DNA of 64,000 nt, from contig DASYCE010000007.1 of assembly GCA_036500345.1 (NCBI GenBank), positions 62,001-126,000 of the forward strand, in the 5' to 3' direction. The notes under the pieces were generated by a model. The model saw nothing but the letters and a program-made list of their open reading frames with translations. It was not told the DNA's origin and made no database searches. The translations under genes were made by a program, and so were the position numbers. Origin of the DNA: Gemmatimonadales bacterium (GTDB lineage: Bacteria; Gemmatimonadota; Gemmatimonadetes; Gemmatimonadales; GWC2-71-9). Numbering within the stretch: position 1 is the first letter of the stretch; each line of letters begins with the position of its first letter. Positions 3,027-15,094 of the stretch are shown piece by piece.

Positions 3027-4249
3027 CCGTGGTGTGCCGGTACGTAGCGCCGCTGCACGTACTCCTCGAGGATCGCGAGGAATTCCGCGACGATCCGGTC
3101 GCCGCGCAACGTCGTGGCGAGCTTGCCGTCGACGAAGACCGGTGCAACCGGATCCTCGAACGTCCCTGGCAGCGAGATCCCGATGTTGGCGTGCTTCGAT
3201 TCGCCCGGACCGTTCACGACGCACCCCATGACGGCGACCTGCAGCGTTTCGACGCCGGGGCGATCGACGCGCCACTCCGGCATCCGCTGCCGCAGGTGCT
3301 GCTGGATTTCCTGCGCCATGCTCTGGAAGAAGGTGCTCGTGGTCCGTCCGCAGCCGGGACAGGATGTGACTTCGGGGGCGAAGTGGCGCAGACCAAGTGA
3401 CTGGAGCACCTGCTGCGCGACGCGGACTTCCTCGCTGCGATCGCCGCCCGGTTCGGGCGTCAGCGAGACGCGGATCGTGTCGCCGATCCCTTCCTGAAGC
3501 AGGATCGCGAGACCGGCGGTGCTGGCGACGATTCCCTTGGCGCCCATTCCGGCTTCGGTGAGACCGAGATGCAGCGGATAGTCGCACCGCGCGGCGAGGA
3601 GACGGTACACATCGACCAGATCCTGCACCTTCGACACCTTGGCGCTGATCACGATCCGGTCGTGGGGCATCCCGGCATTCTCCGCCAGCTCGGCGGATTG
3701 CAGCGCGGATTCGAGCATCGCATCGATCATCACGTCGCGCGCGGCACGCGGAGCGGCAGCGTTGGCGTTGGCATCCATCATCGACGTGAGCAGCGCCTGA
3801 TCGAGTGAGCCCCAGTTGACGCCAATCCGCACCGGCTTGCCGTACTCGACCGCGACGCCGATGATGGTGCGGAAATGCTCATCGTGGCGCTTGCCGCCGA
3901 CGTTTCCCGGATTGATGCGGTACTTCGCCAATGCCGCGGCGCACGCCGGGTAGCGGGTGAGGAGGAGATGACCGTTGTAGTGGAAGTCGCCGACGATCGG
4001 AACGGTGATATCGAGCGCGCGGACACCATCGACAATCGCGGGGACGGCGGCCGCGGCCGCGTCATTGTTGACGGTGACGCGAACCAGTTCGCTCCCGGCA
4101 CGGGCGAGGAGTGCGACCTGCGCAATCGTCGCGTCGACGTCCGCGGTATCGGTGTTGGTCATCGACTGCACCACCACCGGGTGGGAAGAGCCGACGGCCA
4201 CCCCGCCCACCATCACGGTGGGAGTGGACCGGCGCACCGCGACTGTCAT
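3023..4249 (-). CDS. ispG: 4-hydroxy-3-methylbut-2-enyl diphosphate synthase (IspG/GcpE)
   Basis: IspG converts MEcPP to HMBPP in the MEP isoprenoid pathway using a [4Fe-4S] cluster. The 408-residue protein has the N-terminal [11 protein letters not shown] motif, and the three cluster ligands are visible as SCPGC (C297, C300) and GCVVNGPGE (C343, with glutamate near 350). Length and motif order match bacterial IspG without the plant-type insert. I chose the ATG at 4249 because residues from [10 protein letters not shown] align with known N-termini; a TTG at 4288 would add 13 residues and overlap the preceding gene. It is co-transcribed with thiol-redox genes, an unusual partnership for an Fe-S enzyme. 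Confidence 0.95.
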
Positions 4250-4596: not shown

Positions 4597-5589
4597 TCAC
4601 GACGAGGCGATCGGGAAGGCGATCGTGGTTCCGTCGGCTGCGACGTCGATGGAGCCGCGATGCGCCTCGATGATCCGCCGGGCGAGCGCCACGTCGGCGT
4701 CGAGCGTCGGCGGCGCCGCGCGCCGCAGCTCGATCCTGACGCTACCGCGCGCCGCGCCCGTACCAATCGTCATCGCCGATCCGGGGACGGCATGGCGGAC
4801 CACGTGTCGCAGGAGGAGGTCGAGCGCCTGCTGCAGCCGGATCCGATCGCCGATGATCCGCGGCAGCCCCGGCGCCGACTCGATCGTGAGTGAGACGCCA
4901 CCCTTCCGGGCGTCGGCCTCGAGCTGGGGACGGAGGCTCTGCAGCAGGTCGCCGACGCGCAGGCGATCGCGGCGCACTGTGAGCGCACCACGGTCGAGGA
5001 GTGCGATCTCCTGCAACCGTGCCAGCTCGGTCTCGGCCGCAGCAGTGCCGGCGCGCGCCGCTTCGAGCATCTCATCCTGATTGTCGTTCAGCGGTCCGAA
5101 ATGCTGTTCGAGGAGGATGTGCAGCGCGACGCGAGCGTCGTCGAGTTGGCGCCGGATCGCTGCCACGCTCTCGTCAATCAGGACCGCATGCTCCTGCACC
5201 TGCTCGGCGGCACGGCGTTCACGCTCGCGCACCCCCGCTTCCGCCATGGTGACCGCGCTGCTCAGGTGATCGACGACGTCCTCGATGGAATCGAGTTCAT
5301 CCGGTGTGGCGCCAGTCGCCGGCAACGCCGCGGTCCGCACCACGCCGAGCGGCGTCATTCTCCCGTCCCCGCGGGCGCGCGCCCCGGCCAAGCGTTCGAT
5401 GCGGCGAGTGACGTACCGCGTGTTCTGCCACGCGAGGGCGAGCGATCCGAGCGCGGAGACCGCGGCGGCCACGACAACCCACTCCGGCGCGGCGCGATGG
5501 TAGTGCCCCCAGTAGGCGAGGCCCGCAACGGTGAACACCCCGATGATCGCCGGAACGACCGCGAGGAAGAGGCGCTGCGAGATTCTCAC
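4597..5589 (-). CDS. Membrane-bound degenerate histidine kinase at the end of the kdp operon
   Basis: This 330-residue protein starts at a GTG that overlaps the kdpD-N stop (GTGA at 5589-5586). Two membrane helices (about 8-30 and 37-57) lead into a HAMP-like and coiled-coil region (about 110-200) and a C-terminal ATPase-like fold. The dimerisation segment keeps the typical end FGPLNDNQDEML, but the HE.RTPL phospho-acceptor box is replaced by LDDARVAL. The ATPase N-box lacks its asparagine (LLLRHVVRHA), and the DxGxG and GLGL boxes are absent. It is probably a pseudokinase. Its place behind kdpC and the KdpD sensor half suggests a scaffold or modulator of Kdp signalling; that is inference. 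Confidence 0.75.
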   Translation of the reverse strand: MRISQRLFLAVVPAIIGVFTVAGLAYWGHYHRAAPEWVVVAAAVSALGSLALAWQNTRYVTRRIERLAGARARGDGRMTPLGVVRTAALPATGATPDELDSIEDVVDHLSSAVTMAEAGVRERERRAAEQVQEHAVLIDESVAAIRRQLDDARVALHILLEQHFGPLNDNQDEMLEAARAGTAAAETELARLQEIALLDRGALTVRRDRLRVGDLLQSLRPQLEADARKGGVSLTIESAPGLPRIIGDRIRLQQALDLLLRHVVRHAVPGSAMTIGTGAARGSVRIELRRAAPPTLDADVALARRIIEAHRGSIDVAADGTTIAFPIASS

Positions 5590-6764
5590 GGCTCGGCCCG
5601 CGCATTCGCCAGGGACACGACCAGCACGTCGAGCCCCTGCGCGTTGCGCGTCAGCTGCTCGACGATCGACCGCCGGGTAAGATGATGCCACCAGCTGCTG
5701 CGTGACTGTCCCGCAACGATGAGGGTCACGCCGCGTTCGCGGGCAAAGGCGAGGATCGAGCCGGCGACGTCGGCCGACTCGAGCTTCACCACTTCGGCGC
5801 CCATCCCCTGCGCGCGCTGGATGTTCTCGACCAGCTTGCGCTGTACCACGGCGTCGATGCGCGCGGCACTCTCCTCCGGCGTCTGCACATGGACGCAATA
5901 CCAGTCGCGGTTGAGGCGGCCCGCGATGCGGCTTCCCTTCCGCAGCAGGATCGTGGTGTACTTCGGATGACTCGACATCGCGACGAGGATCCGGTCGACG
6001 GCACTCCGGTCGCTCCGTTTGCCGGCCGGCGACGCGACCGCGCCGCTGGTGATGGCGTCGCGGGTGCGATCGACCGAACTCGCGACCTCGCGAAGCGCGA
6101 GTTCACGCAGCGTGGCGAGGTTCTCTTCGGTGAAGAACGACGTCAGCGCGGTGGCGACCTTGTCGGGAGTGTAGATCTTCCCGTCGAGGAGCCGTTGGCG
6201 GAGGTCTTCGGCCGAGATGTCGAGGTTGATGACCTGGTCGGCGAGAGAGACCACCCAGTCGGGGACGGTTTCGCGAACGGTGACACCGAGCGTCTTCTGC
6301 AGGACGTCGTTGAGCGATTCGAGATGCTGCACATTGAGCGCGGAGATGACGCTGATCCCCTCGTCGAGGAGGACCACAACATCTTCCCATCGCTTCGCGC
6401 GTCCGGCGCCGGGGACATTGCTGTGGGCCAGCTCGTCGACGATCGCGACCTGCGGGCGCCGCGCCAGAATTGCGGCGACATCCATCTCCTCGAGGGTCAC
6501 GCCGCGATACTCGATCCGGCGCCGCGGAATCACCTCAAGGTCGCGCAGCTGTGCTGTGGTCTCGACACGGCCGTGCGTTTCGACGTAACCGATCACGACA
6601 TCGACGCCGCGAGCGCGAAGCTGGTGCGCTTCGGTGAGCATCCGGAAGGTCTTGCCGGTGCCGGCGGCGGAACCGATGTAGAGCTTGAGCTTGCCGCGCT
6701 CGCGGGCCTGGACGAGATCGGCGAATGACATTTCGCCGGGCGAGGGTCGAGGAGGCGGCGCCAT
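5586..6764 (-). CDS. kdpD: KdpD N-terminal sensor half (KdpD plus Usp domains)
   Basis: This 392-residue cytoplasmic protein equals only the first part of KdpD. It has the KdpD domain with the P-loop GSAAGTGKT near residue 32 and VIGYVETHGR, followed by a universal-stress-like domain (about 250-385, ending GVTLIVAGQSRSSWW). There are no membrane segments, GAF domain or kinase. E. coli KdpD is 894 residues with this part ending near 395, so the gene stops almost exactly at the natural domain border. The missing half is encoded at 11491-12987. It lies 39 nt after kdpC and would sense K+ or bind c-di-AMP/ATP as part of a two-piece KdpD. Confidence 0.9.
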   Translation of the reverse strand: MAPPPRPSPGEMSFADLVQARERGKLKLYIGSAAGTGKTFRMLTEAHQLRARGVDVVIGYVETHGRVETTAQLRDLEVIPRRRIEYRGVTLEEMDVAAILARRPQVAIVDELAHSNVPGAGRAKRWEDVVVLLDEGISVISALNVQHLESLNDVLQKTLGVTVRETVPDWVVSLADQVINLDISAEDLRQRLLDGKIYTPDKVATALTSFFTEENLATLRELALREVASSVDRTRDAITSGAVASPAGKRSDRSAVDRILVAMSSHPKYTTILLRKGSRIAGRLNRDWYCVHVQTPEESAARIDAVVQRKLVENIQRAQGMGAEVVKLESADVAGSILAFARERGVTLIVAGQSRSSWWHHLTRRSIVEQLTRNAQGLDVLVVSLANARAEP

Positions 6765-6803: not shown

Positions 6804-7397
6804 TCATGGGCGCGTCCCGATCGGCCGCATCATGCCGTCGAGCGCGACGTTGAGGAGAAGGACATTGACGCGCGGCTCGCCGAAGAATCCGAACTGCCGC
6901 CCGATGACGTGCCGATCAACGAGCGCGCGAACCGCCGTGCTGTCGATGCCGCGCGCCCGGGCAACGCGAGCAACCTGCAGATAGGCATTGGCAGGCGAGA
7001 TGTCGGGATCGAGGCCGGATCCGGAACTGGTGACCATGTCGGCCGGGATCTTCCCGCGCACGGCGCCGTCATCCCTCACCGCCGTCGCGACCGCACCGGC
7101 AATCAGCGTATCGGCGAGCTTTCGGTCGGTCGGTCCCTTGTTGGTGCCACCCGACGCAGTGGCGTCATAGCCATTTCCCGCCGCCGACGGCCGCGGATGG
7201 AAGTACTCCGGCCGGGTGAACGCCTGGCCGATCAGCGCACTTCCCACCACGCGCCCGTTGACGACAACGAGTGACCCGTTCGCCTGGCGCGGAAAGACCA
7301 GCTGGGCGAGTCCGGTCACGACGCCGGGATAGACCACGCCGGTGAGGATGCAGAGCACCAGTGTCATCACGATCGCGGGACGAAGCTGGCGCATCAT
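6804..7397 (-). CDS. kdpC: Potassium-transporting ATPase subunit C
   Basis: KdpC is the single-span accessory subunit of the KdpFABC potassium pump. The 197-residue protein starts MMRQLRPAIVMTLVLCILTG, which supplies the one membrane helix (about 8-28). It keeps the family's RPSAAGNGYDATASGGTNKGPT and SGLDPDISPANAYLQV blocks. The ATG at 7397 is one nucleotide past the kdpB stop; a second ATG (7394) is next to it. The end of the protein (GEPRVNVLLLNVALDG) is also typical. Confidence 0.95.
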   Translation of the reverse strand: MMRQLRPAIVMTLVLCILTGVVYPGVVTGLAQLVFPRQANGSLVVVNGRVVGSALIGQAFTRPEYFHPRPSAAGNGYDATASGGTNKGPTDRKLADTLIAGAVATAVRDDGAVRGKIPADMVTSSGSGLDPDISPANAYLQVARVARARGIDSTAVRALVDRHVIGRQFGFFGEPRVNVLLLNVALDGMMRPIGTRP

Positions 7398-7398
7398 C

Positions 7399-9468
7399 TC
7401 AGACCAGCCTGAGCGAGACGAGGACGACGTCGAGGATCTTGATGCCGGCGAACGGCACGAGGATGCCGCCAACACCGTAGATCCAGAGATTGCGGCGGAG
7501 GATCGCCGCGGCGCCGGTGGGGCGATAGCGGACGCCGCGAAGCGCCAGCGGAATCAGCGCCACGATGATCAGCGCGTTGAAGATCACGCTGGCGAGGATC
7601 GCCGACTCCGGCGAATGCAGCCGCATGACGTTCAGGGTATTCAATACCGGATAGGTCGCCGCGAACATTGCCGGGATGATGGCAAAGTACTTCGCCACGT
7701 CGTTCGCGATCGAAAAGGTCGTCAGCGATCCGCGGGTCATCAGCAGTTGCTTTCCGATCTCGACGATCTCGATGAGCTTGGTCGGATTCGAATCGAGATC
7801 GACCATGTTGCCGGCTTCGCGCGCCGCCTGGGTGCCGGTGTTCATCGCGACGCCGACATCGGCCTGTGCCAGCGCCGGCGCGTCGTTGGTACCGTCGCCG
7901 GTCATCGCAACGAGGCGGCCCCCCAGCTGTTCGCGTCGGATCAGCGCCAGCTTGTCTTCCGGCCGTGCCTCGGCGAGAAAATCATCGACGCCGGCTTCCT
8001 GCGCGATCGCTGCGGCGGTGAGCGGATTGTCGCCGGTGATCATCACGGTGCGGATCCCCATCGCTCGCAGCCGGTCGAACCGCTCGCGCATCCCGCCCTT
8101 GACGATGTCCTTGAGATAGACGACGCCGAGCATTCGCGCAGAACCGTCGCTTCGCTCGGCGACGACCAGTGGCGTCCCTCCTTCGCGTGCGATCTGCTCG
8201 ACGATTCCGACCATCTCTACCGGCACCGTTCCGCCACCGTCCTGGACCCAGCGGGTGATGGCGTCACCTGCACCCTTGCGAAGCTGCACCGCCCCCATGT
8301 CGACGCCGCTCATCCGCGTCGACGCCGAGAACGGGACGAAGGTCATCGGTTGGTGATTCGCCGTCTCGCCAACAGGGCGGCCGCGGAGGTGGAACGCTTC
8401 CTTGGCAAGGACCACGATGCTTCGTCCTTCGGGCGTCTCGTCGGGAAGCGACGCGAGTTGTGCCCGATCGGCGAGCTGTTCGCGCGTGATCCCCTGCACC
8501 GGCCGGAATTCGACCGCCTGCCTGTTGCCGAGGGTGATCGTGCCGGTCTTGTCGAGGAGGAGCGTGTTGACGTCCCCCGCTGCTTCCACAGCGCGGCCGC
8601 TGGTGGCGATGACGTTCTGCTGGATCATCCGATCCATCCCGGCGATCCCGATCGCCGAGAGGAGGCCGCCGATCGTGGTCGGGATGAGGCAGACGAGGAG
8701 CGAGATCAGGACGGGAATCGCGACCGCGCCACCGGAATGGACCGCGAACGGCTGCAGCGTCACGACCGCCAGCAGGAAGATGATCGTCAATCCGGAGAGG
8801 AGGATCGTCAGCGCGATTTCGTTCGGCGTCTTCTGACGCCTGGCGCCCTCCACCAGCGCGATCATCCGGTCGAGAAAGGTTTCGCCGGGGTTCGCGGTGA
8901 TGCGAATGACCAGGAAATCGGACAGCACCTTCGTCCCGCCGGTCACTGCCGACCGGTCGCCGCCCGATTCACGCACCACCGGCGCCGACTCGCCGGTGAT
9001 CGCTGATTCGTCCACCGATGCGACTCCCTCGATCACTTCGCCATCGCCGGGAATCAGGTCGCCGGGATGGCAGACGACGACGTCGCCTGCGCGCAGCTGG
9101 CTGGCGGAGACGGCGGTGAACCGATCGTGGCGCAGGGGGTCGGCAAGCCGTTTCGCCTGGGTCTCACGCCGGCTCTTCCGCAATGCATCGGCTTGCGCCT
9201 TGCCGCGACCCTCCGCCATCGCCTCGGCAAAGTTGGCAAAGAGCACGGTGAACCAGAGCCAGATCGCGATCTGCACGGTGAATCCGGTGTGGCCACGGCC
9301 GCCGGCGACGTCGCGCACCAGGATCGCGGTGGTGACGATGCTGCCGATCAACACGACGAACATCACCGGATTCCGTATCATGTGGCGCGGTGTGAGCTTG
9401 CCGACGGCATCGCGCATGGCTCGGCGCACGATCGGCGAATCGAAGAGCGGTCGCGTGGCGACGGCCAT
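7399..9468 (-). CDS. kdpB: Potassium-transporting ATPase ATP-binding subunit B
   Basis: KdpB is the P-type ATPase that energises K+ uptake through KdpA. The 689-residue protein has the TGES loop (158-161), the phosphorylated aspartate in DKTGT (D306), the nucleotide-binding region and [10 protein letters not shown] in the P domain. Seven membrane helices are expected, and the length matches the family (about 680-700). The start is one base after the kdpA stop. The sequence is complete and intact. Confidence 0.97.
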
Positions 9469-9469
9469 G

Positions 9470-11185
9470 CTAGAACACCACGCCCTTCGCCATCAACAGA
9501 TGCTCGACGATCGGTCCGAGCGAGAGCGCCGGAAAGAAGGTGAGCGCGCCGACGATCACGATCACGCCGATGAGGAGCACGACAAAGAGCGGCGTGGTGA
9601 CGGGAAAGGTGCCGGCTGATGCGGGCGCGGCCTTCTGCTCTGCGAGAAAGCCTCCAAGCGCGAGCATCGGCACCAGCATCGCGAACCGGCCGATCAGCAT
9701 GGTGAGGCCGAGCATCGTGTTGTAGTAGTAGGTCCCGCCGGTGAGTCCGGCGAAGGCGCTGCCGTTGTTCCCTGCCGCCGAGGTGAAGGCGTAGAGGATT
9801 TCCGACAGGCCGTGGGGTCCGGCGTTGGCGAGACCGGCGAGCCCGGGCGGGGCCACGACCGAGATCGCGGTCATGGTCAGGATCGCCGCCGGGAAGACCA
9901 GAACGTACAGCATCGCCATCTGGATTTCGCGCGCCTGGATCTTCTTGCCGAGATACTCCGGCGTCCGGCCGACCATCAGCCCGGCGATGAATACCGTCAG
10001 TACGACCATCATCAGGATGCCGTACAATCCGGCACCGACGCCGCCGAAGATCACCTCGCCAAGCTGCATGTTCGCCATCGGCACCAGGCCGCCGAGTGGC
10101 GTGAAGGAATCGAGCATCGCATTCACCGCGCCGCACGAAGCCGCCGTAGTGACAGTGGCATAGAGCGCCGAGTTCGCGATCCCGAAGCGGACTTCCTTCC
10201 CTTCCATGTTGCCGCCGGGCGAGATCGCGGTCGTGATCCCATCGATCCCGCGCGCGATGTGCATCGGGTTGCCCCGCGCCTCGGCCCGGTATGCGGTCGT
10301 GACGCCGGCGGCGAACACTGTGAACATTGCGCCCCAGATCGCCCACCCGTGCCGCTGGTTCTTCACCACGCGACCGAGGTAGTATGTCAGCGCCGACGGA
10401 ATCGCGAAGATGGCGAGCATCTGCCAGAGGTTCGACCACGGTGTCGGGTTCTCGAACGGATGGGAGGCGTTGGCGTTGAAGAAGCCGCCGCCGTTGGTCC
10501 CGAGCTGCTTGATCGCCTCCTGGCTCGCCACGGGCCCCATCGCAATGATCTGACGCGCCCCTTCCAGCGTGGTCACGCCGATGTAGTGCGAGAAGTTCTG
10601 GATCGCCCCCTGCTGCACGAAGATCAATGCCACGACCAGGGCCAGCGGGATCAGGACGTACAGTGTCGCGCGAACGAGGTCGACCCAGAAGTTGCCGATC
10701 CTTCCTGCACTCTGACGGGCGATCCCGCGCACCAGCCCTACCGCGCACGCCATCCCGACCGCCGCCGACGCGAAGTTGTGAAAGGCGAGCTGTGTCATCT
10801 GCGAGAAGTACGACATCACGCCCTCGCCGGCGTACGACTGCCAGTCGGTGTTGGTCGTGAATGACGCCGCGGTTTCGAACGACTGGCGCGCAGGCACAGC
10901 GGTGAAGTGTTGCGGGTTGAGCGGCAGCACGCGCTGCAACCGCAGGACCAGATAGGTCAGGATCATCGACGCCAGCGAGAGGAGGAGCAGCGCGCCCGCA
11001 TACGCCGTCCAATGCTGATCCTCCGCCGGATCGACGCCGCAGATCTGGTAGATCAATCGTTCAATCGGCGCGAGCCAACGCACGCGCCCGTCGAATACCC
11101 GTACCAGGTAGACGCCGAGTGGCCGGGTGATCAACAGGATGCAGGCGGAGAAAAAGCAGATCTGGAGCCAGCCGTTGGCGGTCAT
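9470..11185 (-). CDS. kdpA: Potassium-transporting ATPase subunit A
   Basis: KdpA is the K+-selective channel-like subunit in the inner membrane. All four selectivity-loop regions are visible in the 571-residue protein: [44 protein letters not shown] and [10 protein letters not shown]. About ten membrane helices fit the family. The chosen ATG (11185) gives [12 protein letters not shown], a usual KdpA start, and follows the kdpF stop by one base. The stop is TAG. Confidence 0.97.
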
Positions 11186-11186
11186 C

Positions 11187-11276
11187 TCAGAACCGTTCCG
11201 GCCGCAGCATGGTGTAGACGAGGTAGCCGACGAGGGCAACCGTGATCACAGCGCCGATAACGGCCTCGGCGCTCAC
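11187..11276 (-). CDS. kdpF: KdpF, 29-residue stabilising subunit
   Basis: This is a single-helix lipid-like subunit of the Kdp pump: VSAEAVIGAVITVALVGYLV then YTMLRPERF. It matches the E. coli KdpF layout, including the GYLVY centre and the short C-terminal tail. The GTG start at 11276 follows a GGGGGAG ribosome-binding site and overlaps the stop of the microprotein upstream (GTGA at 11276-11273). It ends one base before kdpA. Confidence 0.9.
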   Translation of the reverse strand: MSAEAVIGAVITVALVGYLVYTMLRPERF

Positions 11277-11389
11277 GGCCGCTCCCCCTTCGACTCGCGC
11301 GACCGCCCCAGTGCCGCGCAGGCGCGGACATACCAGAGCATCGCCACGAAGAAGCCGATGGTACCAGCGAGATAGATCAGGTCGATCAT
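11273..11389 (-). CDS. 38-residue membrane microprotein heading the kdp operon
   Basis: An ATG at 11389 opens a 38-codon frame that ends in the kdpF start. The protein begins MIDLIYLAGTIGFFVAMLWY and continues VRACAALGRSRESKGERP: one membrane helix, a YVRxC motif at its end and a basic cytoplasmic-type tail. I recall small proteins with the same pattern (helix, FFxxxxxYVxGC) annotated as hypothetical upstream of kdpF in other bacteria, which supports it as a real gene. It could be an extra subunit or assembly factor of the pump. No function has been shown here. Confidence 0.72.
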   Translation of the reverse strand: MIDLIYLAGTIGFFVAMLWYVRACAALGRSRESKGERP

Positions 11390-11475
11390 CGATGCCTGCC
11401 GTCAACAACGCTGTTCGTCACGGCATGCACGCTACGCATCCGCCCGTGAAGGACGCATGCGACAAGGGGGAGAAC

Positions 11476-11497
11476 AGCGTTAAGAGATCGCTAAGAT
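11476..11497 (-). promoter_or_regulatory. Tandem 11-bp direct repeats, candidate KdpE operator
   Basis: On the minus strand two copies, TCTTAGCGATC and TCTTAACGCTG, stand head to tail with an 11-bp period (TCTTARCG core). OmpR/PhoB-family regulators such as KdpE bind direct repeats with this period. They overlap the last codons of kdpD-C and lie about 90-110 bp before the kdp microprotein, where the kdpFABC promoter should be. The regulator is inferred from position; a clear -10/-35 pair was not found. Confidence 0.45.
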
Positions 11498-12987
11498 CCG
11501 ATCACACCGACCGGGAGGTCGGCAGCGGGAAGGGTGAGCTCGAACGTCGCGCCGGACGCCGACGGGCCCGTTGATCCGATGGTCAGTGTGCCGCCCTGCA
11601 ACTCCGCCAGTTGCCTGGCGATCGAGAGGCCGAGGCCCGCGCTGCCGCTATCGGGGATGGCGCCCGCCGGGCGATAGAACGGCTCGAAGATCCGCTCGCG
11701 CTCGCGCAGGGGAATCCCGGGGCCACGATCGATCACGGCGAAACGCAGCATATCGGCGTCGCGGCTGATGCGCAGCACGACCGGGTCCGACGGCGGCGAG
11801 TATTTGTGCGCGTTCTCGATCAGGTTGACCAGGATCCGGAGCGCGTGCACCAGATCGAACCGACCGACCAGCAGCGTGCTATCGTCCTGGAACTCGACCT
11901 CGAGGGTACGTGTGCCGAGAATCCCCGCAACTCGCTGCATCAGCGCGCCGATCAGGTCGTCGACGGCGTTGAGGGCGATGTGGAGCGGGATGGCGCCGCC
12001 CTGCAGTCGAGAGAGGTCGAGGAGGTCGGCGACGAGTCGGTTGAGGCGGTCCGCTTCTTCCTCGATCATGACGGCGCGGTCGTCGCGCGTCCCCATGTCG
12101 TGCGCGAGCGCCTTGATCGTCGTGAGCGGCGTGCGCAGATCGTGCGACACCGACGCGAGCAGCGCGTTCTTGAGCCGATCGGCCTCGCGGAGTGCGTCGG
12201 CATCGCGTGCCTCCGTCGCGAGTCGCGCGCGTTCGATCCCCAGGGCGGCGTAGTAACTCAGCGCGCGAAGAAATCGACGTTCGTGCGCGCCGAGCTCGAC
12301 GCCGGTGTCGTGCCGCAACTCGAGAACACCCACGGTACGATCGCGGACGCGGAGCGGGAGATACCAGGCGATCGCCCCTGCTCCGCCCGAAAGCTCATCA
12401 AGTCCGTCGGTCACGTGCGTGGTGCCGTCGGCCTGTACCTGGGCCGCTCCGCCATGTTCGCGCACCCACGTCACCAGCGGGTCGGCGGTCGGTCCATCCG
12501 CGTCGCTGCGATCGGCGTGAATGCGGCAACGGGTCAGGTGAAGCGTCGTCCGGATCACCTCGGCCACCGCGTCGATCGCCTCCTCCGGCCGGGCAACATT
12601 GAGCGCTTCTGCGCCGAGCACGGCAAATTGATTGACCTCGGCGGCGCGCTGGCGTGCGAGTTCCGCTTCGCGCTTGAGCCGGTGGAGCATCTCCGCTGCG
12701 ACGCCGCTGACCAGGAGAAAGGCGGCGAGAACGAGCCAGTCGAGCGGATCGTTGACGCGCAGCGTCCCGTACGGGACGAGGAAGAACCAGTTGAAGAGGA
12801 GGAACGCGACCGCTGCGAGGGAAAAGCCGAGCAGCCGCCCTCCGCTCACGGTACCGAGCAGGATCAGCAGCAGATAGATGAGCGTGACATGCGCCTTGTC
12901 GAGGCGGCCGCGAAACGCCAGCATCGCGATCGTCGCGACACCGAGGGCAATGCCCCAGATCACCCATTGCATCCAGGCGCGGCGCAT
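11491..12987 (-). CDS. kdpD: KdpD C-terminal half: membrane, GAF and histidine kinase domains
   Basis: This 498-residue protein is the rest of KdpD. It has four membrane helices within residues 8-100 (the DUF4118 region), a GAF-like domain (about 130-255), the phospho-acceptor SVSHDLRTPL (H282) and an ATPase domain with N-box, DRGPGIP and GLGLSI boxes. Its length plus that of the 5586-6764 product (392) is 890, close to the 894 of E. coli KdpD. The ATG shares one base with the kdpE stop (TGATG at 12989-12985), so it is coupled to kdpE. It should phosphorylate KdpE. Confidence 0.92.
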   Translation of the reverse strand: MRRAWMQWVIWGIALGVATIAMLAFRGRLDKAHVTLIYLLLILLGTVSGGRLLGFSLAAVAFLLFNWFFLVPYGTLRVNDPLDWLVLAAFLLVSGVAAEMLHRLKREAELARQRAAEVNQFAVLGAEALNVARPEEAIDAVAEVIRTTLHLTRCRIHADRSDADGPTADPLVTWVREHGGAAQVQADGTTHVTDGLDELSGGAGAIAWYLPLRVRDRTVGVLELRHDTGVELGAHERRFLRALSYYAALGIERARLATEARDADALREADRLKNALLASVSHDLRTPLTTIKALAHDMGTRDDRAVMIEEEADRLNRLVADLLDLSRLQGGAIPLHIALNAVDDLIGALMQRVAGILGTRTLEVEFQDDSTLLVGRFDLVHALRILVNLIENAHKYSPPSDPVVLRISRDADMLRFAVIDRGPGIPLRERERIFEPFYRPAGAIPDSGSAGLGLSIARQLAELQGGTLTIGSTGPSASGATFELTLPAADLPVGVIGS

Positions 12988-13691
12988 CACGCGGTCGCCG
13001 TCGATGCCTCGGCTGCCGTGGCAAACCGGTAGCCGACGCCGGGCTCGGTGATGATGTAGCGTGGACGGATCGAGTCGAGTTCGATCTTGCGGCGCAGATG
13101 CGCCACGTAGACGCGCAGATATTGCTGCGCGTCGCCAAATTGCCGGCCACGCCACACTTCACCAAAGAGGAACTGGTGCGTCAGCGTGCGGCCTGCGTTG
13201 CGCATCAGGACCACCAGGAGGTCCCACTCGATCGGCGTGAGCCGCAGCGCCTCGCCGCTTCGTCGCAGGCTCCGGGAGGCGAGATCGAGAGTGAGATCGC
13301 CGATCACGATCGGCTCACCGTCGGGCGCCGACAGCATCGCCGAGCGGCGCAACAGCGCGCGGGCGCGGGCCTGCAGCTCGGACGTGCTGAACGGCTTGGT
13401 GAGATAGTCGTCGGCACCGGCGTCGAGCAGGCGCACCTTTTCATCGTCGGCATGCCGCGCCGAGAGGACGAGCAACGGAACGGACGACCAGCGGCGGAGC
13501 TCGATGCAGACATCGATTCCCGGCATGTCGGGGAGGCCGAGGTCAAGGATGATCAGATCGGGGCGCTGGGCCGCTGCCGCATCGATTCCGGCCGAACCGG
13601 TCTCGGCTTCGACAACGCGCGCGGGTTCGGGAAAGGCGTTGCGTACCACGCGGCGAATCGGCGTTTCGTCGTCGATCACCAGCACGGTCAT
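12987..13691 (-). CDS. kdpE: KdpE response regulator (OmpR family)
   Basis: This 234-residue protein has a receiver domain with D50 (LIILDLGLPD), an acidic pocket IDDE, a conserved lysine in LTKPFS, and a winged-helix DNA-binding domain ending RPRYIITEPGVGYRF. The AQQYLRVYVAHLRRKIE segment is typical of KdpE. The chosen ATG (13691) gives MTVLVIDDE; the frame upstream is open but unlike the family. It lies 17 nt after the histidine-kinase gene at 13709 and directly before kdpD-C. It should activate the kdp operon, possibly through the repeats at 11476-11497. Confidence 0.92.
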   Translation of the reverse strand: MTVLVIDDETPIRRVVRNAFPEPARVVEAETGSAGIDAAAAQRPDLIILDLGLPDMPGIDVCIELRRWSSVPLLVLSARHADDEKVRLLDAGADDYLTKPFSTSELQARARALLRRSAMLSAPDGEPIVIGDLTLDLASRSLRRSGEALRLTPIEWDLLVVLMRNAGRTLTHQFLFGEVWRGRQFGDAQQYLRVYVAHLRRKIELDSIRPRYIITEPGVGYRFATAAEASTATA

Positions 13692-13708
13692 CGGCTGCGA
13701 CGTCGCCG

Positions 13709-15094
13709 TCAGGTGACCGCCGGTGCCGGCGCCGCCATCGGGTGAGCGGGCAGGCGCAGCGCCACGATGTTTTCCCGTTCGCGCCGCGTGATGACGAGTT
13801 CGCCGCCGTGAACTTTCGCGATCCATTGCATGATCGACAGCCCAAGGCCTCCCACACGCCCGTCGTCGTCGGTGCGAGGCACCGCGTGGCGGGACTCGAA
13901 GGGAATCGGCTCGCCGGTGTTCCGCACCTCGAGGAAGACGTTGCCGTTGTCCGCCCGCACGCCGAGTGCGACCGGCGGCCCCGGTTCGCCGTGACGGCAG
14001 GCGTTCTCAAGCAACTCGAGGAGTCCCTCGCGCAGCAGCGCCGCGTCACCGGTGAGTTCACAGGGAACGATGTCGTCGAGCTGCAGATGCTGCCCGAGGG
14101 CTCGCGCACGCGCGCGAAACAGATCGGTCGCCTCGAGTGCGAGCGCATCGAGTTCGACAGTGTCGCGCAGCGGCGGCCGCTCGCCGGCTTCCATTCGCGC
14201 CAGCAGCAGAAGATCCTGCACCCGGTGGGTCATCTGCCCGGCCGCCGCATGGACTCGTCGCAACGCGCGGGCGTATTCCTCCGCGCTCCGTTCGCGCTCC
14301 AACCCGAGATCGGCTTCGCCAAGGACGAGGGTGAGCGGGGTGCGAATCTGATGCGCCACTTCGCGAACGAATCGATGCGAACGATCCTGGAGCGCCTGAA
14401 TCCGGTCGAGCAGGTCGTTGAACCGGCCGGCGAGGCGATCGAGCTCGTCGGGCGGCGAGCTGACCGGAAGACGTCCAGCGAGCGCGCCGGGCGAGATCGC
14501 GGCGGTGGCCCGGCCGAGGGCATCGATCGGCGCCAGGGCGTAGCGCGACAGCAGATACCCGATCACCAATGCCAGGACGAGCGCCAGCGGCGCCATCAGC
14601 AGCATCCGTGCGACGAAGCGCGTCTGATTGCGACGGAGCCGGTCAGTCGTGGCACCGGCCACCACAAAGGTGCCGAGCACCGTGTCGGTGGTGTAGCGGA
14701 GATGCAGACCGTTCGAAAGCGGAATCCGGTCGATGTCATCGACGTCGGGAATCGACGGGAGCGGCGGTATCAGCCGCACCATTCGCTCGTTGCCGCCGGT
14801 CGCGATGCGCTGGCCGGTTGAATCGTAGACCACGAAGGCGACGGTCGACGGCGAGAAATCGACCATTGCCTGCTGGACGCCAGCGAAGACGTTGGTATCG
14901 ATCGCGATGCCGGACCCTTGGCGGCGAATGGCGTGATGGAAGGAGGCCGCGGCGTCCTTGAGGCGCTCGTTGAAGTCGTGCCCGTTGGTGATGGTGACGT
15001 ACCAGTAGGACGCGCCATCGAGCGCCACGAAACCGACAAAGAGCGCCACTGCAAAGCCGCGGGCAAGCCGCAGCCGCAGCCGGCTAAGCGCCAT
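13709..15094 (-). CDS. Sensor histidine kinase with HAMP domain
   Basis: This 461-residue membrane kinase has a helix at about 12-30, a periplasmic sensor of some 130 residues, and a second helix at 163-183. A HAMP domain follows (190-240), then REVAHQIRTPL (H248) and an ATPase domain with LLENACRHG and GLGLSIM. The aspartate-glycine box between them is hard to see. It overlaps its response-regulator gene by 11 nt (15084-15094), so the two form a pair. The signal is unknown. The gene is 17 nt upstream of kdpE, so both two-component pairs may share a transcript. Confidence 0.9.
   Translation of the reverse strand: MALSRLRLRLARGFAVALFVGFVALDGASYWYVTITNGHDFNERLKDAAASFHHAIRRQGSGIAIDTNVFAGVQQAMVDFSPSTVAFVVYDSTGQRIATGGNERMVRLIPPLPSIPDVDDIDRIPLSNGLHLRYTTDTVLGTFVVAGATTDRLRRNQTRFVARMLLMAPLALVLALVIGYLLSRYALAPIDALGRATAAISPGALAGRLPVSSPPDELDRLAGRFNDLLDRIQALQDRSHRFVREVAHQIRTPLTLVLGEADLGLERERSAEEYARALRRVHAAAGQMTHRVQDLLLLARMEAGERPPLRDTVELDALALEATDLFRARARALGQHLQLDDIVPCELTGDAALLREGLLELLENACRHGEPGPPVALGVRADNGNVFLEVRNTGEPIPFESRHAVPRTDDDGRVGGLGLSIMQWIAKVHGGELVITRRERENIVALRLPAHPMAAPAPAVT

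Follow-up and report, generated by a model that had tools for sequence, protein, structure and literature searches.

A conserved single-helix microprotein encoded beside kdpF and kdpA in the Kdp operons of many bacteria

Results

Organization of the kdp cluster

The window, the whole stretch of 64,000 nucleotides from a Gemmatimonadales bacterium that was analysed, carries a kdp cluster on its minus strand. Along that strand the genes follow one another as response regulator, C-terminal half of KdpD, microprotein, kdpF, kdpA, kdpB, kdpC and N-terminal half of KdpD. The kdpF gene (11187-11276, GTG start) encodes 29 residues and is recognised by PF09604 (E 3.2e-11) and TIGR02115 (E 2.6e-10). It is followed by kdpA (9470-11185, 571 residues, PF03814), kdpB (7399-9468, 689 residues, assigned by domain scan) and kdpC (6804-7400, PF02669, E 1.9e-73). 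The KdpE-like response regulator (12987-13703) and the DUF4118-GAF-HisKA-HATPase kinase that forms the C-terminal half of KdpD (11491-12990) were both assigned by domain scan, with their starts trimmed for the scan. KdpD is thus split in the window: the half with the KdpD sensor domain and Usp is a separate gene after kdpC (5586-6764, PF02702, E 1.7e-89), and the half with the DUF4118 kinase precedes the microprotein gene. A similar split of KdpD is described for Deinococcus radiodurans (PMC5716572). Among the best 80 of 577 loci, the closest named KdpA proteins share 72-74% identity with that of the window; three of the four record titles give Gemmatimonadetes or Gemmatimonadaceae and the fourth only 'bacterium'.

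The microprotein gene occupies 11273-11389 on the minus strand, as supported by the ORF list, homology and the codon test, and its 38-residue translation is MIDLIYLAGTIGFFVAMLWYVRACAALGRSRESKGERP. This frame had been pointed out, with no strand given, in a first-pass annotation, which also noted that its stop overlaps the GTG of kdpF. The overlap is indeed present and amounts to 4 nucleotides (GTGA, 11273-11276), the TGA of the microprotein overlapping the kdpF start. The single membrane helix described there is borne out by hydropathy, the maximum over 19 residues on the Kyte-Doolittle scale being 1.84 for the microprotein versus 2.22 for KdpF. By hydropathy and place, it is a single membrane helix encoded beside kdpA. 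The protein had been said to end in YVRxC; the motif is there, but it is followed by a hydrophilic tail of 14 residues. Such a tail is uncommon across the 94-row family described below and usual among its Gemmatimonadota members. The frame had also been said to start the kdp operon. In the window it does come first among the structural genes of the cluster, but it is preceded on the same strand by the genes of the DUF4118 kinase and the response regulator, with 101 nt between the kinase gene and the microprotein start. A scan for sigma-70-like promoters found none in 11200-11700, which says little because only 0.1 would be expected in shuffled sequence. One terminator-like site (0.2 expected) lies at 11354-11368, within the microprotein ORF.

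The 38-codon frame is under selection as protein

The codon test compared 22 independent pairs, equal in length and with DNA identities of 70-97%. Differences at codon positions 1, 2 and 3 numbered 88, 66 and 194. Out of 280 changed codons, 150 (54%) were synonymous and 130 nonsynonymous, as against 19.5% synonymous (sd 2.3, maximum 28.7% in 1000 draws) when the changes were placed at random. That null ignores transition bias; the frame control, which is independent of it, gave synonymous fractions of 46/275 (17%) and 34/267 (13%) for the other two frames of the same pairs. The synonymous excess is confined to the frame of the microprotein, as is found under selection on the protein sequence. 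The 38-codon ORF is a protein-coding gene.

Alignment of 94 members, most of them 26-28 residues long, gave a core of 26-28 residues with the pattern M-x-D-...-F-F-...-A-Y-V-x-A-C-[DE]-R-L. The aspartate at position 3 is retained in 88 members, the second phenylalanine in 87, the tyrosine in 80 and the cysteine in 85. Some members have A, L, M or S in place of the cysteine, so a strict catalytic role does not apply and a catalytic function of this residue was rejected. Charge is unevenly distributed, with an acidic N-terminus and basic residues at the C-terminal end: R or K occurs within the first five residues in 6/94 members, and R, K or H beyond residue 19 in 92/94.

The microprotein is unrelated to KdpF

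The window microprotein matched no family in Pfam or NCBIfam, the KdpF models PF09604 and TIGR02115 included, and it is therefore not a KdpF by these models. Nine other members of the family gave sub-threshold matches to unrelated Pfam or NCBIfam families (E>=0.039), none of them KdpF, and a PDB sequence search with the microprotein returned no match. Profiles of the microprotein and of KdpF did not cross-match at E<=1e-3 in either direction (best E 0.15), and hhalign of the two reached a probability of 5.3 over 4 columns. The microprotein as a divergent copy of KdpF was rejected, as the two have no profile homology. The two tiny single-helix proteins in a row before kdpA, as the first-pass annotation put it, are thus the microprotein and KdpF, unrelated by profile. 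The microprotein belongs to a family that has no curated model, and its gene is a real gene of Kdp operons.

Conservation in Gemmatimonadota

A search of 61 genomes of the order with the single microprotein sequence matched 17 at E<=0.0078, the window's own included; outside the window's genome the best match had E 6.7e-9, and the next match beyond the 17 lay at E 0.0267. The kdpA gene (PF03814) is present in 19/61 genomes. All 17 with the microprotein are among these, and in each it is encoded beside kdpA. Sixteen of the 17, one of them the window, have a KdpF-like ORF next; in the remaining one (locus L008) kdpA itself comes next. A profile of the 17 rows, which matches its own rows at E<=4e-17 by construction, had no match at E<=0.001 among the 42 genomes that lack kdpA, the best further match being E 0.0136. 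Within the 61 genomes the gene hence occurs only with pump genes (0/42 without kdpA, 17/19 with it, the profile rows being those same 17). As to the two other genomes with kdpA, G018 has a short ORF of 26 residues ending LIRLCDRL ahead of kdpF, and G004, of the window's genus, has kdpF but no microprotein ORF in the approximately 400 bases before it.

In the wider phylum scan, 33/249 Gemmatimonadota genomes matched at E<=0.001, a figure that counts microprotein matches and not kdpA. Besides the window, 31 different Gemmatimonadota loci were examined, after setting aside repeats of the same places, and in 30 of them a KdpF-like ORF follows the microprotein. The stop/start overlap, by our reading of these loci, recurs with kdpF in 28/31 and with kdpA in one more. 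The first-pass annotation had named a lack of amino acid conservation at this position in relatives as refuting its proposal; the sequence proved to be conserved, well beyond close relatives, and the proposal stands up to this check.

Conservation across phyla

For a wider survey, a set of named contigs was formed from the best 80 of 577 confirmed KdpA loci, chosen by similarity to an alignment headed by the window KdpA. Recognised by eye from its shortness, hydrophobicity and shared C-terminal pattern, a relative of the microprotein stands before kdpF in 79/80 of these loci; this is not a prevalence figure, since the loci are the best of 577 by likeness to the window KdpA. In the 80th the contig starts 12 bases before kdpA. 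A KdpF-like ORF follows the microprotein in 79/79. Some of the named loci repeat Gemmatimonadota loci obtained otherwise (the L099 protein is the L011 protein). The titles of the 79 records, many of them MAG titles and possibly wrong, are Gemmatimonadota, Acidobacteriota, Alphaproteobacteria, Nevskia, Verrucomicrobiota, Chloroflexota (Ktedonospora, Dictyobacter), Myxococcus, Melainabacteria, Elusimicrobia and a Bacteroidetes.

Plasmid records were also inspected, 24 being picked by hand for variety from 60 listed of 465. The microprotein was present in 15/24, from Azospirillum, Rhizobium etli, Sinorhizobium meliloti, Roseateles, Novosphingobium, Acetobacter, Roseomonas, Paracoccus, Mycetohabitans, Caballeronia, Deinococcus radiodurans, Acidithiobacillus caldus, Bacillus badius, Allomeiothermus and Phocaeicola. 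The B. badius and Allomeiothermus members rest on place and C-terminal pattern, the Gemmatimonadota profile missing both. In the other 9/24, which have kdpA, no microprotein ORF was seen in the approximately 600 bases before kdpA; these are two Klebsiella records and one each of Moraxella, E. coli, Tsukamurella, Lactiplantibacillus, Halobacterium, Enterococcus and Acinetobacter. A tblastn search of plasmids with the 38 residues gave 11 records; of two inspected, that of Azospirillum lipoferum was a kdp operon and that of Emticicia was not.

An unpicked test was made by running a Gemmatimonadota-only profile against the 500 bases before kdpA at 96 loci from other named records (75 of the contigs, 21 of the plasmids). 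It matched 79/96 loci at E<=0.01 and 61/96 at E<=1e-4, with 0/96 on the antisense strand and 0/480 in dinucleotide shuffles, and none of the 79 matches was KdpF-like. Among the 17 loci that were not reached at E<=0.01, such an ORF can be seen by eye in eleven and is missing in six. In the reverse test, a 90-row profile without Gemmatimonadota picked the window ORF with E 3.6e-8 among 1207 frames, the next frame having E 1.2. Judging from record titles, Kdp operons with a member of the family come from about ten bacterial phyla.

Variation in gene order

At L008 (genome G043) there is no recognisable kdpF, and the microprotein stop overlaps the kdpA start; KdpA of this locus sits on a long branch. 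Allomeiothermus has the microprotein gene after kdpF and ahead of kdpA. D. radiodurans R1 shows another arrangement, in which kdpB is followed by the microprotein gene (3326-3406) and then by kdpF (3403-3483), kdpA and kdpC. The microprotein and kdpF genes do not overlap in Azospirillum lipoferum and R. etli, where gaps of 10 and 13 nt separate them.

Some further small ORFs were seen at these loci. The D. radiodurans R1 kdpF ORF itself (L199, 3403-3483) is absent from the annotation listed in the record. In Bradyrhizobium (L158, L163, L164, L165, L174) a third single-helix micro-ORF lies between kdpF and kdpA, for example MSALCTILLADAVLTGLLLGMFASLLRFAPIRKV, which has no match in NCBIfam or Pfam. 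Two loci titled Spartobacteria and Verrucomicrobia (L126, L142) have two tandem microprotein-like ORFs upstream of kdpF.

Presence and absence on the KdpA tree

The KdpA tree was made by a quick method with no mixture model; it is unrooted and has 70 rows, covering about half of the named loci. L052_G018 (short) and L197 and L198 (both without a microprotein ORF) were omitted. Presence of the microprotein needs at least 4 changes over the 70 rows and is clustered, none of 500 shuffles being as low. Gain and loss are inseparable on this tree, which has no root and in which several long branches join.

The locus of G004 (L034), from the window's own genus, has a different type of Kdp, with kdpF and no microprotein, and its KdpA falls outside the Gemmatimonadota rows. 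This separate position suggests that kdp of G004 was replaced by transfer.

Discussion

The evidence given above is best accounted for, in our judgement, if the microprotein serves the Kdp pump, a K+-importing P-type ATPase, as a small accessory or assembly subunit, a role that we regard as probable. Its synthesis would go together with that of KdpF and KdpA, the GTGA overlap providing translational coupling in the window. On entering the membrane, its acidic N-terminus would lie outside and its basic C-terminus inside, as predicted from the positive-inside rule and the charge pattern of the family. The conserved FF...Y...C face may then pack against KdpA, KdpB or KdpF, and such packing would stabilise or tune the Kdp complex. 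An extra small subunit of the pump had been suggested in the first-pass annotation. The linkage to kdpA, the selection on the protein, its retention in the absence of kdpF and its persistence in changed gene orders agree with that suggestion; as to the association with the pump, we infer it from these. The arrangements at L008, in Allomeiothermus and in D. radiodurans point to a protein that acts with the pump and not to a leader of kdpF.

The microprotein could instead be a membrane regulator, acting in the manner of MgrB on KdpD or on the post-translational shut-off of the pump. Its place in the same operon is compatible with this. Tsukamurella, which presumably has KdpD, is nevertheless without the microprotein. 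Support for contact between a small Kdp helix and the sensor comes from M. tuberculosis, where KdpF bound KdpD in a two-hybrid assay, but no important effect on kdp regulation was found in the same study (PMC3618439). E. coli also has KdpD (PMC2714519) and yet lacks the microprotein. Moreover, the gene stays with kdpF and/or kdpA in every arrangement, even where KdpD is split, as in the window and in D. radiodurans (PMC5716572). We regard a regulator of this kind as unlikely.

A transient assembly factor or insertase helper for KdpF or KdpA, absent from the finished pump, would account for the gene order with kdpF and kdpA and for the overlap with the next start codon. By sequence such a helper cannot be separated from a stable subunit. 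We hold this too for an improbable explanation.

The overlap in the window and at the other Gemmatimonadota loci (28/31 with kdpF, one more with kdpA) might also mean that the ORF is a leader, whose translation and not its product controls expression of kdpF and kdpA. A leader peptide stands at the 5' end of its operon, ahead of the gene that it controls, whereas the microprotein gene comes later than kdpB in D. radiodurans and follows kdpF in Allomeiothermus, and the overlap itself is missing in Azospirillum lipoferum and R. etli. Purifying selection acts at the level of amino acids, residues are conserved across phyla, and no Rfam match was obtained at E<=1 across 9000-14000 of the window. 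A pure leader ORF is largely refuted by the gene order in Deinococcus and Allomeiothermus, the selection and the lack of an Rfam match, and is very improbable.

A chance ORF or frame-shadow of kdpF or kdpA, which might be suspected from the shortness of the frame and the lack of Pfam and NCBIfam matches, is refuted by the conservation across phyla, with the cross-phylum profile matches, the codon test and the frame control, and scarcely deserves consideration.

The chief argument against a necessary role is that the pump evidently functions in some lineages that lack the microprotein, since 9/24 plasmid records and G004 have kdpA without it. PDB matches to KdpA comprise three distinct sequences of 557 residues, which we take to be those of E. 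coli; in E. coli a complex of four subunits is sufficient. To our knowledge, KdpFABC of E. coli is the only Kdp with solved structures, and we know of no Kdp structure from an operon type that has the microprotein gene. A wider reading is that Kdp is commonly a pump of five subunits, having in about ten phyla a second helix unrelated to KdpF, and that KdpFABC of E. coli is a variant without it. We offer this reading tentatively, as a possibility that falls somewhat short of an even chance.

Kdp is a model for the coupling of a P-type ATPase with a channel-like subunit. As a real gene is found in the Kdp operons of many phyla and is absent from the E. coli operon examined, the pump may have an overlooked part. 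If the microprotein is a true subunit, the complexes of many other bacteria have a helix that has not been modelled, and reconstitution or heterologous expression of such a Kdp without it may be incomplete. The case also illustrates that a gene may be widespread and under strong selection and still be missed by curated family models if its product has fewer than 30 residues.

Among the papers listed from open-licence PMC text, none was recognisable as dealing with the microprotein family. A review of P-type ATPases presents Kdp as a heterotetramer formed by KdpA, KdpB, KdpC and KdpF (PMC10654040), and a study of Caulobacter describes an unannotated kdpF together with a structured leader of about 100 nt (PMC8552747). 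The gene tables of the plasmid records, which are incomplete, name the microprotein in 2/13 annotated carriers; two further of the 15 carriers are without annotation. In PLSDB/RefSeq the Mycetohabitans member (WP_338861741.1) is automatically named 'potassium ABC transporter ATPase' and the Azospirillum member (WP_275451547.1) 'hypothetical protein'. Both are encoded directly upstream of kdpF and share the same core, but the first name is at odds with the sequence, in which there is no hint of an ATPase or ABC transporter.

Among known proteins, KdpF (PF09604, TIGR02115) is the nearest in character, being a single helix of about 30 residues from the same operon whose gene adjoins kdpA and often has overlapping start and stop codons. 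It differs in its C-terminus, which is [RK]PE[RK]F versus C-[DE]-R-L in the microprotein, and in having no profile homology to it, and the two genes coexist in 79/79 named loci. In kind, the microprotein resembles AcrZ and CydX, small single-helix accessory proteins of membrane complexes: it too is a tiny helix whose presumed target is a larger enzyme of the membrane. AcrZ and CydX have other partners, and the likeness drawn here is one of kind.
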